A stretch of 37,389 nucleotides of DNA from Fimbriimonadaceae bacterium (GTDB taxonomy: Bacteria; Armatimonadota; Fimbriimonadia; Fimbriimonadales; Fimbriimonadaceae). Shown in pieces: positions 10,122-32,481 of the stretch. Numbering within the stretch: position 1 is the stretch's first letter; each line of letters starts with the position of its first letter. The position numbers and the translations under genes were made by a program. Location: assembly GCA_025455775.1 (NCBI GenBank), contig JALOLT010000014.1:1-37389 (forward strand), read 5' to 3'. The notes under the pieces were generated by a model. The model was not told the origin of the DNA and made no database searches. It worked only from the letters and a program-made list of their open reading frames with translations.

Positions 10122-10634
10122 CTAGCTCGGAAGCACTCCCAGGGCCAACCCGATATCATGCGCAGTGGGATTGTCGGAGGCATTTGTGTTGCGGTGCTCC
10201 CAGATGACAGTTCCGCACCGGTCCAGGACGAACGATCCCCCCATCTGCCAGGGATCCCCGACTGGGGCTCCCACCGAATGACCCTTCTTAGCTGCTTCGG
10301 CTCCTCGCCTCCAACTCTCCCAGCCGAACATTTGCTTTACGGAGCCCCTGCCAAGGCCAAACTGAAGGTACAGCTCCTTATCCGGGTCGCAGATAAATCG
10401 GTGAGGGCTCCTCAGTTTCTTTCGGAAAGCCTCGGCTTGGCCTTCATTGGCCATAACCACAAAGGCAACGTTCCAATGATCATGTTCACGCAGCTCCGCC
10501 ACGTGTTCTCGACAGAAAATTCACCCAAAATGGCGCAGGAAAATCAAGGCTAAAGGTTCTTCGTCAAAGAGAAAAGCGAAGGGAACTTCCTCCCCCTCAC
10601 TGAGTCTGACAAACTGCTCGCCCGATACTACCAC
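10122..10634 (-). CDS. Peroxiredoxin-like (AhpC-TSA_2 / PRXL2 type) protein, probable selenoprotein with UxxC
   Basis: Thioredoxin-fold peroxiredoxin-like protein of 170 aa when UGA at 10523-10521 (codon 38) is read through. The frame upstream and downstream is homologous without a gap: F-L-R-H-F-G-[UGA]-I-F-C-R-E-H-V-A-E-L-R matches the family motif F-G-C-x-x-C-R-E-H, with UGA exactly where the first cysteine of CxxC belongs. Read as selenocysteine this gives U38-I-F-C41. Downstream, D-P-D-K-E-L-Y and G-L-G-R-G-S are further family landmarks. A hairpin fitting a bacterial SECIS begins 16 nt after the UGA. The GTG start at 10634 lies 10 nt after the sigma-factor stop, so the gene is probably co-transcribed with dnaG and the sigma gene. 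Stopping at UGA would leave a useless 37-aa peptide, and starting at the internal GTG 10502 would omit the active site. A nonsense mutation or sequencing error cannot be excluded, because one base change separates TGC/TGT from TGA. Selenocysteine genes are not in this window. Confidence 0.78.
10487..10505 (-). promoter_or_regulatory. Candidate bacterial SECIS hairpin
   Basis: Nucleotides 16-34 after the UGA fold into an 8-bp stem with a GGA triloop: C-G, A-U, C-G, G-C, U-G, G-U, G-C, C-G. The loop begins 24 nt after the UGA and starts with GG. Established features of bacterial SECIS elements are a small apical loop, a guanosine in the first two loop positions and a spacing of roughly 16-37 nt; all three are met. 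The hairpin lies inside the coding sequence, as bacterial SECIS elements do. Confidence 0.6.
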
Positions 10635-10644
10635 GTCTCTTTTT

Positions 10645-11562
10645 TTACTCCAGAGTAATGCGAATCTGCGCGGCAATCTCTGGGATTCGGAGCTTTTTCA
10701 GACTTCGTTTTTCAATTTGTCGCACCCGTTCACGTGTCATTTCGAACTCCGTCGCGACATCTTCTAGTGTTCTGGGACGACCGTCCTCAAATCCGAAGCG
10801 TCTCAGTAAGACTTCTTTTTCCCTCTCGTCCAAAGTTTCAAGAGCCTCCCAGAGTTTCTCTCGTTGGATGTTCCTCATCGCAGCCTCGGTCGCAAGGTGG
10901 CTCTCCGGATCTCTGAGGAAATCGACGAGCGTCAAATCGTCCGCTTCTCCGACCGGTGCCTCTAAGCTCAAGGCATCGGGAAGGGCCTCGAACAAAGCCT
11001 TGAGCCGACCGACCGAGAGGCCAGTCGCTTTCGCTAGCTCCTGTTGCTCTGGTTCACGCCCCAGCTCTTGGTGGAGTCTCGCCTGGATCCTCATAATGCG
11101 CCCGATTGATTCGGCAATGTGAACGGGAACCCGGATTGTTCGCCCCTGGTCACTCAGGGCTCTGGTGATGGACTGCCGAATCCACCAAGTCGCGTAGGTG
11201 CTGAATCGGTACCCCTTTCGATAGTCAAACTTCTTGGCCGCCTTCATGAGGCCAATGTTGCCTTCTTGGATCAGATCTTGGAGCGCAACACCCCGGTTAG
11301 CGTACTTCTTAGCCACAGAAACAACGAGGCGCAAATTTGCTTCAACCAGCAGATTCCGGCACTCTTCGGAACCCTGTTCGGCCTGCTTGGCCAGTTCCAA
11401 CTCCTGCTGAGCGGTGAGAAGAGGAATTCTCCCGATCCGTTGGAGCCACAGCTTTATTGAATCGTCGACCGAGTCGCGCCTGGAGTCTTCGTGGCCATTT
11501 TTCTCAGCTGATGACGCATCCGAATTCAAAGACTTTTCATTCAAGTAACCATTTTCAATCAC
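10645..11562 (-). CDS. rpoD: RNA polymerase sigma-70 family factor (RpoD/SigA type)
   Basis: Primary-type sigma factor of 305 aa that directs RNA polymerase to promoters. Region 1.2 begins at D-D-S-I-K-L-W-L. Region 2 contains L-I-Q-E-G-N-I-G-L-M-K-A and the promoter-melting and -10-binding Y-A-T-W-W-I-R-Q-S-I. Region 3 follows V-P-V-H-I-A-E, and region 4 ends with the -35 helix-turn-helix T-R-E-R-V-R-Q-I-E. It lacks the long acidic N-terminal region 1.1 seen in E. coli, as in many short SigA proteins. It starts with GTG. Its place directly after dnaG is the classical primase-sigma arrangement and supports the housekeeping sigma, although a group 2 sigma cannot be ruled out. The next gene starts 10 nt after its stop. 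Confidence 0.92.
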   Translation of the reverse strand: MIENGYLNEKSLNSDASSAEKNGHEDSRRDSVDDSIKLWLQRIGRIPLLTAQQELELAKQAEQGSEECRNLLVEANLRLVVSVAKKYANRGVALQDLIQEGNIGLMKAAKKFDYRKGYRFSTYATWWIRQSITRALSDQGRTIRVPVHIAESIGRIMRIQARLHQELGREPEQQELAKATGLSVGRLKALFEALPDALSLEAPVGEADDLTLVDFLRDPESHLATEAAMRNIQREKLWEALETLDEREKEVLLRRFGFEDGRPRTLEDVATEFEMTRERVRQIEKRSLKKLRIPEIAAQIRITLE

Positions 11563-11625: not shown

Positions 11626-13356
11626 CTAATCTTCCGGATTCCCACCTTTTTGTTGGCGAAGCTTTTCACTGAGCTGCCTGAGCAGTTCGTCATCAGTCGC
11701 GGCTCGGTCACCAAGAGCTTTGAGCTCTCGCTCGCTCGCGAGTCGCTGCAGTCTCTTGAGGGCGTCCTCGACCGCAGCAAGTGGCAATGGCTCTTCTTCT
11801 TCCCACAGCAAGAGTTCCAAGACTTCCCTGCCCCTTCCCTGAGGCAGTTGATCCAGAAGCTCTGCAGGTCCTTGGGTTGTTCCCGTTGCAGAGAGGGATT
11901 CGATGACCGCAATAGCGTCTGAACTGTAAAAAAGTTTGGCCTGACCCAGGGCGTCAAGAGCGACTTTCTTGGTCGTTGGTGAGTTCATGGCTCTGATAAG
12001 AACCCGCTCAGGTCCGGACATGTCGTAGGCACGCTTGCCGGATGGCACAACGGAAGTTTGGCTTGATGATCTGAGAGCCTTATCGCCCCCGGTCATGGCC
12101 TGGCGCACCATCCGACCAAGGGCCCGTTTCGCAGCTGCGACATCTCTGACCCCTGGGTAGTCAGCCGCGACTTCATGGAGGAATCTCTCCCGCTCCAGGT
12201 CGTTTCTAGCAAGGGTGAGGGCCTGAACGACTTCGTCCCAATAGGCTTGGTCACGCCGATCCGGATACTTTGCTTGAAGCGACCTGAGGATGAATTCGAC
12301 CGGCGTTTGAGTTTGCTCGATGGCTCTTTGGACTGCGAGGGGCCCCTGAGTGCGAAGCAAAGTGTCTGGATCGTCTCCTGGCGGCATCAGGGCAATTCGG
12401 ACTCGCAGTCCCGCTTCTTGGCACAGTCGACTCGCTTTCTCCGCTGCTTTTTGACCTGCCGCATCGGAATCATAGAGTATGACGACCTCTTGGCACCACC
12501 TTGAGAGGAGCTTCACATGGTCTTCGGCGAGGCTTGTTCCTAAAGTCGCTACCGCAGAAGTGACTCCTGCTCGATGGCATGCGATGACATCGAGGTACCC
12601 CTCAACCAGGACCGCCGTGCCAGATTTCGAGATGGACTCCTTCGCCTTGTGCATCCCGTATAAGACCTTGCTCTTTGAATAGAGAGGTGTATCGGACGAG
12701 TTAATGTACTTCGGGATGCCTGCCCCAATGATCCGTCCCCCGAAGGCGACCAGCCCCCCCCTCTCATCGTGGATGGGGAAGATGAGGCGGTCGCGGAATC
12801 GGCCAAAGAATCCACCTCCCTGATCTTGGTCAACAAGGAACAGGTCTCGACATTCTTGGAGAGAGTGGCCTGCCTTTTTCAGGATATGGGCCAGAGCATC
12901 CCCCACTCCCGGGCCATAGCCGAGTTGCCAGGCTGCGATGACTTCTGAAGTGATGTTCCGGGACTCGCAATAGATTTTAGCTGCTGGCTCCGCCTCGAGG
13001 GATCTTTGGAAAAAGACCAGGGCTTCGCTCATCGCTGACTCAAAGGCTTCCCTCCGGCTTGGCCCCTTGTTCTCTTTGCTGAGGGTGACGCCTGCTCTTG
13101 CGGCTAAGAGGGTCAGGGCTTCAGCGAATTCAACTTTCTGAGTTTCCATGACCCAGTTAAAGATGTCACCGGTTGCACCACAGCTCCAGCACCGGTACCT
13201 TCCCATTTGGTCATTAACATTAAAGGAAGGGTTTTTGTCGTCGTGAAACGGACATAAACCCTTCCAATCTCGCCCAGCTTTCTTGAGCGGAACTCTTTCT
13301 GCTACCAGGTCGCGGATGCTAATCCGCCGCTTAATTTCGGCAATCTCATCCGACAC
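11626..13356 (-). CDS. dnaG: DNA primase
   Basis: DNA primase of 576 aa, which makes RNA primers at the replication fork. The N-terminal CHC2 zinc finger is C35-x-x-H38 with C56-x-x-C59. The central catalytic core has the TOPRIM motif V-L-V-E-G-Y-L-D-V and the metal-binding D-S-D-A-A-G. The C-terminal part is the less conserved helicase-interaction region. Length and domain order are normal. The start is GTG 13356: a TAAACT box lies exactly 6 nt upstream and no ribosome-binding site is visible, which suggests a leaderless start inside the end of the preceding gene. The sigma gene follows after 63 nt. Confidence 0.96.
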   Translation of the reverse strand: MSDEIAEIKRRISIRDLVAERVPLKKAGRDWKGLCPFHDDKNPSFNVNDQMGRYRCWSCGATGDIFNWVMETQKVEFAEALTLLAARAGVTLSKENKGPSRREAFESAMSEALVFFQRSLEAEPAAKIYCESRNITSEVIAAWQLGYGPGVGDALAHILKKAGHSLQECRDLFLVDQDQGGGFFGRFRDRLIFPIHDERGGLVAFGGRIIGAGIPKYINSSDTPLYSKSKVLYGMHKAKESISKSGTAVLVEGYLDVIACHRAGVTSAVATLGTSLAEDHVKLLSRWCQEVVILYDSDAAGQKAAEKASRLCQEAGLRVRIALMPPGDDPDTLLRTQGPLAVQRAIEQTQTPVEFILRSLQAKYPDRRDQAYWDEVVQALTLARNDLERERFLHEVAADYPGVRDVAAAKRALGRMVRQAMTGGDKALRSSSQTSVVPSGKRAYDMSGPERVLIRAMNSPTTKKVALDALGQAKLFYSSDAIAVIESLSATGTTQGPAELLDQLPQGRGREVLELLLWEEEEPLPLAAVEDALKRLQRLASERELKALGDRAATDDELLRQLSEKLRQQKGGNPED

Positions 13357-13362
13357 TGTTGT

Positions 13363-13368
13363 AGTTTA
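13363..13368 (-). promoter_or_regulatory. Leaderless -10 box for dnaG
   Basis: TAAACT with 6 nt to the GTG start of dnaG. Its first three bases are also the TAA stop codon of the upstream gene. It would give dnaG its own transcript starting at the G of GTG, in addition to any read-through from upstream. Confidence 0.5.
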
Positions 13369-14226
13369 CTGCTTACCAGCAGCGACTACAACACCAGTGA
13401 CTTGGTGCGGTTTGTTGGCTTGGAGTCGGCTCATTCGGAAGGCGACTCTGTCGCGCACGAGGAATCGAACGACGATGTTATCGCCGGTGATTTCGTAGGC
13501 GTCAGGTGCTCCGTATTGCCGAATGAGAGTCCCGAAGGTCGTTCCAAGGGTGACTCCGCGCCGCGTTCTGACGGCACTATTCCTCATGCCGATCGCTTCG
13601 ATTTGGATAACTCGGTTAAATTTATCCATGACAAAGGCATAGCGAGTGCCGGGTCGTCGGTAGACCCAACGGGTGAAGATGACTCGTCCGGAAGAGCCAG
13701 AGACTGTTCCATCTGCTCCGCCAGGTCGTCCACCAGGGCCACCAGGTCTGCCTGGGCCGCTCGGCATACCCCCTGGAGGGCCACCTCGTGTGGGAGGAGC
13801 TCCTCGACCTCTGGCGTCACCTTCGTCTTCCGGGAAGGCTTGTCGCCACATAGAGCTTGGCTCTGAGAACGGATCACCGATCAGGTCAGAAGCAGCTGTT
13901 CCAGCTCCCGATGGGGTTATGTTCTCCATGGCAGTTGGCTGTCCGCCGCCACCGCCGGCACCAGGGCCGCCTCTTCCGCCGCCAGGGCCAGAGGGAGCTC
14001 CGCCAGGGGCGGCACCGCCGGCTCCTGTGGAAAGGCCTTGGATATCATCGGGGTTACCGAACCGAGCAATGACTCTGGTACCTGGGTCGTAGAGCGCAAT
14101 GCCAACAAGGCTATTCTCGGCCGAGCCACGACGGGGCTGGGGAGCCGAGGGGTTTTGGGCAATCGCCGAAACGCCGACCATCGACGCAACGGATACAACT
14201 GCAAGAGCTAAGATTGACTTCTTCAA
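13366..14226 (-). CDS. Secreted Gly/Pro-rich protein of unknown function
   Basis: Unrecognised exported protein of 286 aa. A signal peptide (K-K-S-I-L-A-L-A-V-V start, cleavage near A-I-A-Q) is followed by a short folded segment with Y-D-P-G-T-R-V-I-A-R-F-G-N-P-D. Two low-complexity Gly/Pro/Ala stretches (about residues 70-100 and 140-175) flank a short ordered block. A C-terminal folded domain of about 110 residues contains a second G-T-x-F-G-x-x-I-R-Q-Y-G-A-P-D segment that resembles the first, so both halves may hold the same small 'RFG-x-PD' module. The start is TTG at 14226 with GAGGG 7 nt before it. It lies directly upstream of dnaG; a functional link is not evident. Confidence 0.8.
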   Translation of the reverse strand: MKKSILALAVVSVASMVGVSAIAQNPSAPQPRRGSAENSLVGIALYDPGTRVIARFGNPDDIQGLSTGAGGAAPGGAPSGPGGGRGGPGAGGGGGQPTAMENITPSGAGTAASDLIGDPFSEPSSMWRQAFPEDEGDARGRGAPPTRGGPPGGMPSGPGRPGGPGGRPGGADGTVSGSSGRVIFTRWVYRRPGTRYAFVMDKFNRVIQIEAIGMRNSAVRTRRGVTLGTTFGTLIRQYGAPDAYEITGDNIVVRFLVRDRVAFRMSRLQANKPHQVTGVVVAAGKQ

Positions 14227-14372: not shown

Positions 14373-14696
14373 ATGCCAGCAAAAAATGTGACTTCTGAAT
14401 CGCAATTTGAATCAGAGATTCTCGGGAGCTCTCTCCCTGTCCTCGTCGATTTCTGGGCTCAGTGGTGCCCCCCTTGCCGGGCCATCGCTCCCAGCATTAG
14501 CGAATTGGCTGAGGAATACGCCGGAAAGGCAGAGGTCTACAAGCTGGATGTGGATCAATTGGGGGACCTTGCAACCAAGTACAGCGTGATGAGCATTCCA
14601 ACCCTTCTCGTGTTCAAAAACGGTGAACTCGTCGAAAGAAGTGTCGGAGGCATGGAAAAGGCACGAATCGCTGCCCTCCTTGATCCCCACGTCTAA
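14373..14696 (+). CDS. trxA: Thioredoxin with a C-P-P-C active site
   Basis: Thioredoxin of 107 aa, a cytoplasmic disulfide reductase that recycles peroxiredoxins and other thiol enzymes. The active site W31-C32-P-P-C35 differs from the usual W-C-G-P-C by a proline in place of glycine, which would be expected to alter redox potential. The cis-proline motif S-I-P-T-L is present, and length and fold are normal. It is transcribed divergently from the Gly/Pro-rich protein gene and is followed by its own strong terminator, so it is probably monocistronic. Confidence 0.95.
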   Translation: MPAKNVTSESQFESEILGSSLPVLVDFWAQWCPPCRAIAPSISELAEEYAGKAEVYKLDVDQLGDLATKYSVMSIPTLLVFKNGELVERSVGGMEKARIAALLDPHV

Positions 14697-32001: not shown

Positions 32002-32481
32002 TTAGGCAAGGTTTTTCAAGGTATCGAGAATTGCTTGAGCGTTTGGCTTTTCGAGAGGTGTCGGAGTTTCTTCAGAATATCTGACTATGCCTTCCTTGTC
32101 GATGACGAAAGCAGCGCGCTTGCTTCCGGGGCCAAGGCCTACGAGGTCAGGCAAAACCACGTCGTAGGCAGCGATGGTCGTCTTCTGATAGTCACTGGCG
32201 AGAGTCAACTTGATACTGTTCTGCTTAGCCCAGGCTTCCTGGGCAAAAGGAGAATCTGCGCTGATCGCGATAACGTGAGCATCCAGCCCGTCAAAGTCCG
32301 AAAGGCCACTGGTCATGTCACAAAGCTGATCTGTGCAGACCCCGGTGAAGGCAGCGGGAAAGAACAAGACAACCGTGTTTTTCTTACTAAAATTGTCGCT
32401 CAGCTTGACATCCACGAGTCCGTCGTCGTTCTTGCTGCGGAGGGAGAAATCTGGGGCTTGGGTTCCAACTGCAATAGCCAT
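32002..32481 (-). CDS. Peroxiredoxin (AhpE-like)
   Basis: Thiol peroxidase of 159 aa that reduces hydrogen peroxide and organic peroxides. The catalytic motif is P-A-A-F-T-G-V-C, with C49 as the peroxidatic cysteine. A second cysteine (C54, in D-Q-L-C) lies five residues later and could form an intramolecular disulfide. F-S-L-R-S at the start and R-A-A-F-V-I-D later are typical. It is followed after 23 nt by the metH half-gene on the same strand and probably shares its transcript. A TAATCT box 8 nt before the ATG suggests a leaderless start. Confidence 0.92.
   Translation of the reverse strand: MAIAVGTQAPDFSLRSKNDDGLVDVKLSDNFSKKNTVVLFFPAAFTGVCTDQLCDMTSGLSDFDGLDAHVIAISADSPFAQEAWAKQNSIKLTLASDYQKTTIAAYDVVLPDLVGLGPGSKRAAFVIDKEGIVRYSEETPTPLEKPNAQAILDTLKNLA

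Follow-up and report, generated by a model that had tools for sequence, protein, structure and literature searches.

An in-frame UGA at a redox-active position

Within the window, the 37,389-nt stretch of the genome of a Fimbriimonadaceae bacterium that was analyzed here, a reading frame on the minus strand is interrupted by a single TGA triplet, which raises the question of whether this triplet is a true stop, an error or a codon for selenocysteine (Sec). The frame, a selL-like gene (10122..10634), extends from a GTG start at 10634 to a TAG stop at 10122 and comprises 170 codons, giving a protein of 170 aa if UGA is read through; its only in-frame stop is the TGA at codon 38 (10521..10523, minus strand). 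A re-reading of the minus strand reproduced exactly the frame and the one UGA described in an earlier sequence-only reading. In the surrounding sequence, FLRHFG-U-IFCREHVAEL, the UGA is aligned with the first Cys of the FGCxxCRE motif, and the corresponding residue would be a Sec at the first position of UxxC, with Cys41 (10512..10514, minus strand) as the putative resolving residue; the latter position is less conserved than position 38. The codon usage values before and after the UGA (0.14 and 0.12) match those of 15 long ORFs of the window (0.12–0.23). No strong Shine-Dalgarno sequence at good spacing was seen by eye before the GTG start.

We consider it about 95% probable that this gene encodes a SelL-related (peroxiredoxin-like 2/AhpC-TSA_2) selenoprotein, in which UGA-38 would be translated as Sec by SelB and tRNA-Sec. 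This selenoprotein reading of the in-frame UGA, reached by computation, is well supported by the comparisons described below.

Sec and Cys forms of the family in Armatimonadota

A survey of 291 Armatimonadota genomes yielded 72 strong matches to the family, 17 of which contain an internal stop. Each of these 17 has one such stop, always TGA and never TAA or TAG, and in every one of them (all were read) it is located at the codon equivalent to codon 38 of selL, which extends the occurrence of this TGA to 16 further Armatimonadota genomes. The equivalent codon is also TGA in two MAGs from other phyla, one of Anaerolineales (L021) and one of Planctomycetota (L022). Comparison with Cys-38 proteins revealed orthologs with TGC at this position (TGT in one), in agreement with the earlier proposal that the UGA replaces the redox-active Cys of a UxxC motif.

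An error of sequencing or of assembly, or a pseudogene in which a nonsense mutation has recently converted TGC or TGT into TGA, would need only one base difference; the genome is a draft of 170 contigs (2.99 Mb, 98% complete), and the nearest homologs of the selL protein include Cys forms (e.g., L040 and L031). However, a base error is implausible because TGA is found at the same codon in the 16 other genomes of the phylum, besides those of the two other phyla. The lack of TAA and TAG among the 72 strong matches, the coding signature that remains intact past the UGA and the presence of the Sec machinery in the genome likewise argue against an error or a pseudogene, and we regard this explanation as very improbable.

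In a tree of 33 sequences, the Sec and Cys states are interspersed, with 10 changes, at least six of which are forced by well-supported branches, and the Sec and Cys labels show no greater clustering than do shuffled labels. Sec and Cys have been swapped repeatedly at one position among these related bacteria, with 6–10 changes that may have run in either direction. Exchange between Sec and Cys is known in other Prx-like families (PMC1794560). The second redox position also varies: position 41 is Ala in L037 (UxxA) and in L020 of Chthonomonas sp. (CxxA), and the protein of L036, from a genome of the same bacterial family (G013), is the same as that of L020, a match from which the lineage was placed in Armatimonadota. 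Therefore, part of the family, namely the UxxA and CxxA members, may act as single-residue enzymes, as far as the sequences indicate.

Sec machinery of the source genome

The genes on which the proposal of a selenoprotein depends are all present in the source genome: selA (473 bits), selB (346 bits) and selD (348 bits), each scoring over its curated cut-off, as well as tRNA-Sec (selC) with the anticodon TCA. Among the genomes tested, tRNA-Sec (scored as present at ≥60 bits) occurs in 11 of 11 genomes of the Sec type and in 15 of 27 of the Cys type (p = 0.006 by Fisher's test, in which each genome counts as an independent case although their independence is incomplete). The association between the Sec type and tRNA-Sec gave p = 0.012 within the family alone. 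A search for further selenoproteins in the source genome returned 12 AhpC-TSA matches and three formate dehydrogenase matches (below the cut-off), none of which has an internal TGA. No convincing further UGA-interrupted frame was found by eye in the window or in approximately 75 kb located mostly around the sel genes.

These data also bear on the view that the UGA is a true stop, followed by a restart at GTG 10502 that would produce a protein of 126 aa lacking the active site. Conventional ORF calling at this locus indeed returns the ORF of 10122-10502 alone, the truncated 126-aa product that the sequence-only reading had anticipated from an annotation that stops at UGA, and UGA is a normal stop in the source genome, because approximately 6 of 23 long ORFs of the window end with it. 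On the contrary, such a protein would lack the redox motif as well as the initial strands of the fold, and TGA replaces exactly the nucleophilic Cys in many genomes, which, among those tested, are only ones that possess tRNA-Sec. A stop with restart is thus also very unlikely. The idea that the source organism reads UGA as a standard amino acid (Trp or Gly), which the existence of an in-frame UGA might suggest, is contradicted because UGA serves as a stop codon in this genome, and it also conflicts with the Cys that is aligned in the orthologs and with the lack of other convincing interrupted frames in the window or around the sel genes, so that it can be dismissed almost entirely.

Family assignment and predicted structure

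The read-through protein scores 144.5 bits against NCBIfam NF040769 (SelL-related redox protein; cut-off 120) and 57.2 bits against Pfam AhpC-TSA_2 (PF13911; gathering threshold 27), and its earlier placement as an AhpC-TSA_2/PRXL2-like protein with UxxC was right. SelL is a Prx-like selenoprotein family that has been reported from prokaryotes and eukaryotes (PMC2398784) and for which two Sec residues have been described (PMC3473315). The Armatimonadota protein resembles this family in its full-length profile match over the cut-off, its Prx-like fold and a putative Sec at the first redox position, but it has one UGA (UxxC), with Cys41 at the second redox position, and is therefore not a SelL in the strict (animal) sense of a protein with two Sec residues. 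An AhpC/TSA family selenoprotein of pfam13911 with a UxxS motif has also been catalogued already (PMC9312934; PMC13188914); it shares with the Armatimonadota protein the Pfam family and the kind of redox position that holds Sec, whereas the motif of the latter is UxxC. A text search of a literature library for Armatimonadota selenoproteins found no report. Thus, of the "probable new selenoprotein" put forward by the sequence-only reading, the selenoprotein part stands, but the gene represents a new Armatimonadota member of NF040769 rather than a new family, because the SelL-related family, including forms with Sec, was known before.

An AlphaFold model of the protein, in which Cys replaces Sec, has a pLDDT of 93 and a thioredoxin/peroxiredoxin fold. 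Residue 38 is predicted to lie between a strand (28–32) and a helix (39–49), so that the first helix to follow the central strand would carry the redox residue at its N-end, as in thioredoxin-fold oxidoreductases. The best structural match of the model is human prostamide/PGF synthase (PGFS, PRXL2B; PDB 9usa and 9us9), with a Z of 19.3 and an rmsd of 2.0 over 154 residues at 22% identity. The same enzyme is the sole relative found by a sequence search against solved structures, with a weak E of 0.02 and an alignment without gaps as far as the motif. U38 and C41 are aligned with C44 and C47 (CxxC) of human PGFS, which therefore has Cys where the bacterial protein would have Sec; in addition, the prostanoid substrate of the human enzyme is not expected in the source bacterium. 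The overall fold is common to the PrxQ/BCP and AhpE peroxiredoxins as well (Z of approximately 17); however, identity to these is 12–18%, and the motif of canonical peroxiredoxins is TxxC or TxxU, as opposed to FGUxxC in the selL protein.

A putative SECIS hairpin downstream of the UGA

According to the published model of the bacterial SECIS element, a stem of 4–16 bp carries a loop of 3–9 nt with a G in its first two positions, located 16–37 nt from the UGA (PMC13188914). A putative hairpin at 10487..10505 (minus strand) conforms to this model, with an 8-bp stem, the apical loop GGA (10497-10495) and a spacing of 23 nt between the UGA and the loop. Its energy is −10.1 kcal/mol, with a z of −3.1 against dinucleotide shuffles for a 27-nt stretch selected so as to contain the hairpin; the z is −1.4 when the 41 nt that follow the UGA are taken instead. 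In several Sec relatives, the equivalent place is occupied by a GCGC-AGUU-GCGC-like hairpin. No model-conforming hairpin is present in the Sec relatives L021 and L022.

When synonymous codons were shuffled under the constraints of the model, excess stability was found for the Sec members combined (p = 7e-4) as opposed to the Cys members (p = 0.20), and the window copy alone gave a non-significant p = 0.14. When Sec and Cys members were compared simply by the minimum energy of the sequence that follows the UGA, the outcome was not decisive (p = 0.06), and counts of the best contiguous stem did not separate the two (means of 5.1 and 4.9, respectively). The SECIS assignment is thus good at the level of the family and plausible for the window copy, because the group is significant and the copy by itself is not.

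Gene neighborhood and a possible reaction cycle

The site of the gene behind a sigma factor, as described in the sequence-only reading, was found again: a gene for an RpoD/SigA-type sigma factor (10645..11562, minus strand) lies directly upstream of selL at a distance of 10 nt and is itself preceded by the dnaG primase gene (11626..13356, minus strand), giving the order dnaG-rpoD-selL. The three genes are probably co-transcribed. A 286-aa ORF (13366-14226, minus strand) that precedes dnaG, and seems to belong to the same row of genes, has no Pfam or NCBIfam match. An upstream sigma gene of the RpoD type on the same strand is also found at 10 other selL loci of both the Sec and the Cys type (L028, L031, L033, L034, L040, L044, L046, L048, L050 and L053); hence, selL-like genes follow such a gene in at least 11 genomes, including that of the window. 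This recurrent site, together with the interspersed Sec and Cys states, was less expected.

Most probably, UGA-38 is decoded as Sec by SelB and tRNA-Sec, which would be guided by the putative SECIS hairpin just downstream within the coding sequence. In the predicted model, the first active-site helix would have Sec38 at its N-end, with Cys41 a turn further along. On the basis of the fold and of prostamide/PGF synthase chemistry, the Sec38 selenolate would most likely attack a peroxide or a similar oxidized substrate; the resulting selenenic acid would be resolved by Cys41 to form a selenenylsulfide, which in turn would be reduced by thioredoxin. One gene past dnaG, and divergent from it, is a thioredoxin gene (14373-14696, plus strand; PF00085, 102 bits), the product of which is a possible reductant of the selenoprotein. 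The window also contains a second peroxiredoxin gene without an in-frame UGA (32002-32481, minus strand; PF00578, 107.6 bits).

It is also tempting, if rather doubtful, to speculate that this redox enzyme, with its unusually frequent switching between Sec and Cys within one bacterial family, is tied to the housekeeping-type sigma factor as a possible redox partner of transcription, and is perhaps among the very few proteins that keep the Sec machinery alive in the genome.

Implications for Sec use in Armatimonadota

Standard annotation would leave a SelL-related enzyme without its active site in no fewer than 17 Armatimonadota genomes. Judged from the genes, Sec decoding would now be documented for Armatimonadota, a poorly studied phylum. 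Sec forms and closely related Cys forms are distributed over genomes that possess or lack the Sec machinery, and together they amount to a natural experiment on the causes and the frequency of Sec gain or loss.
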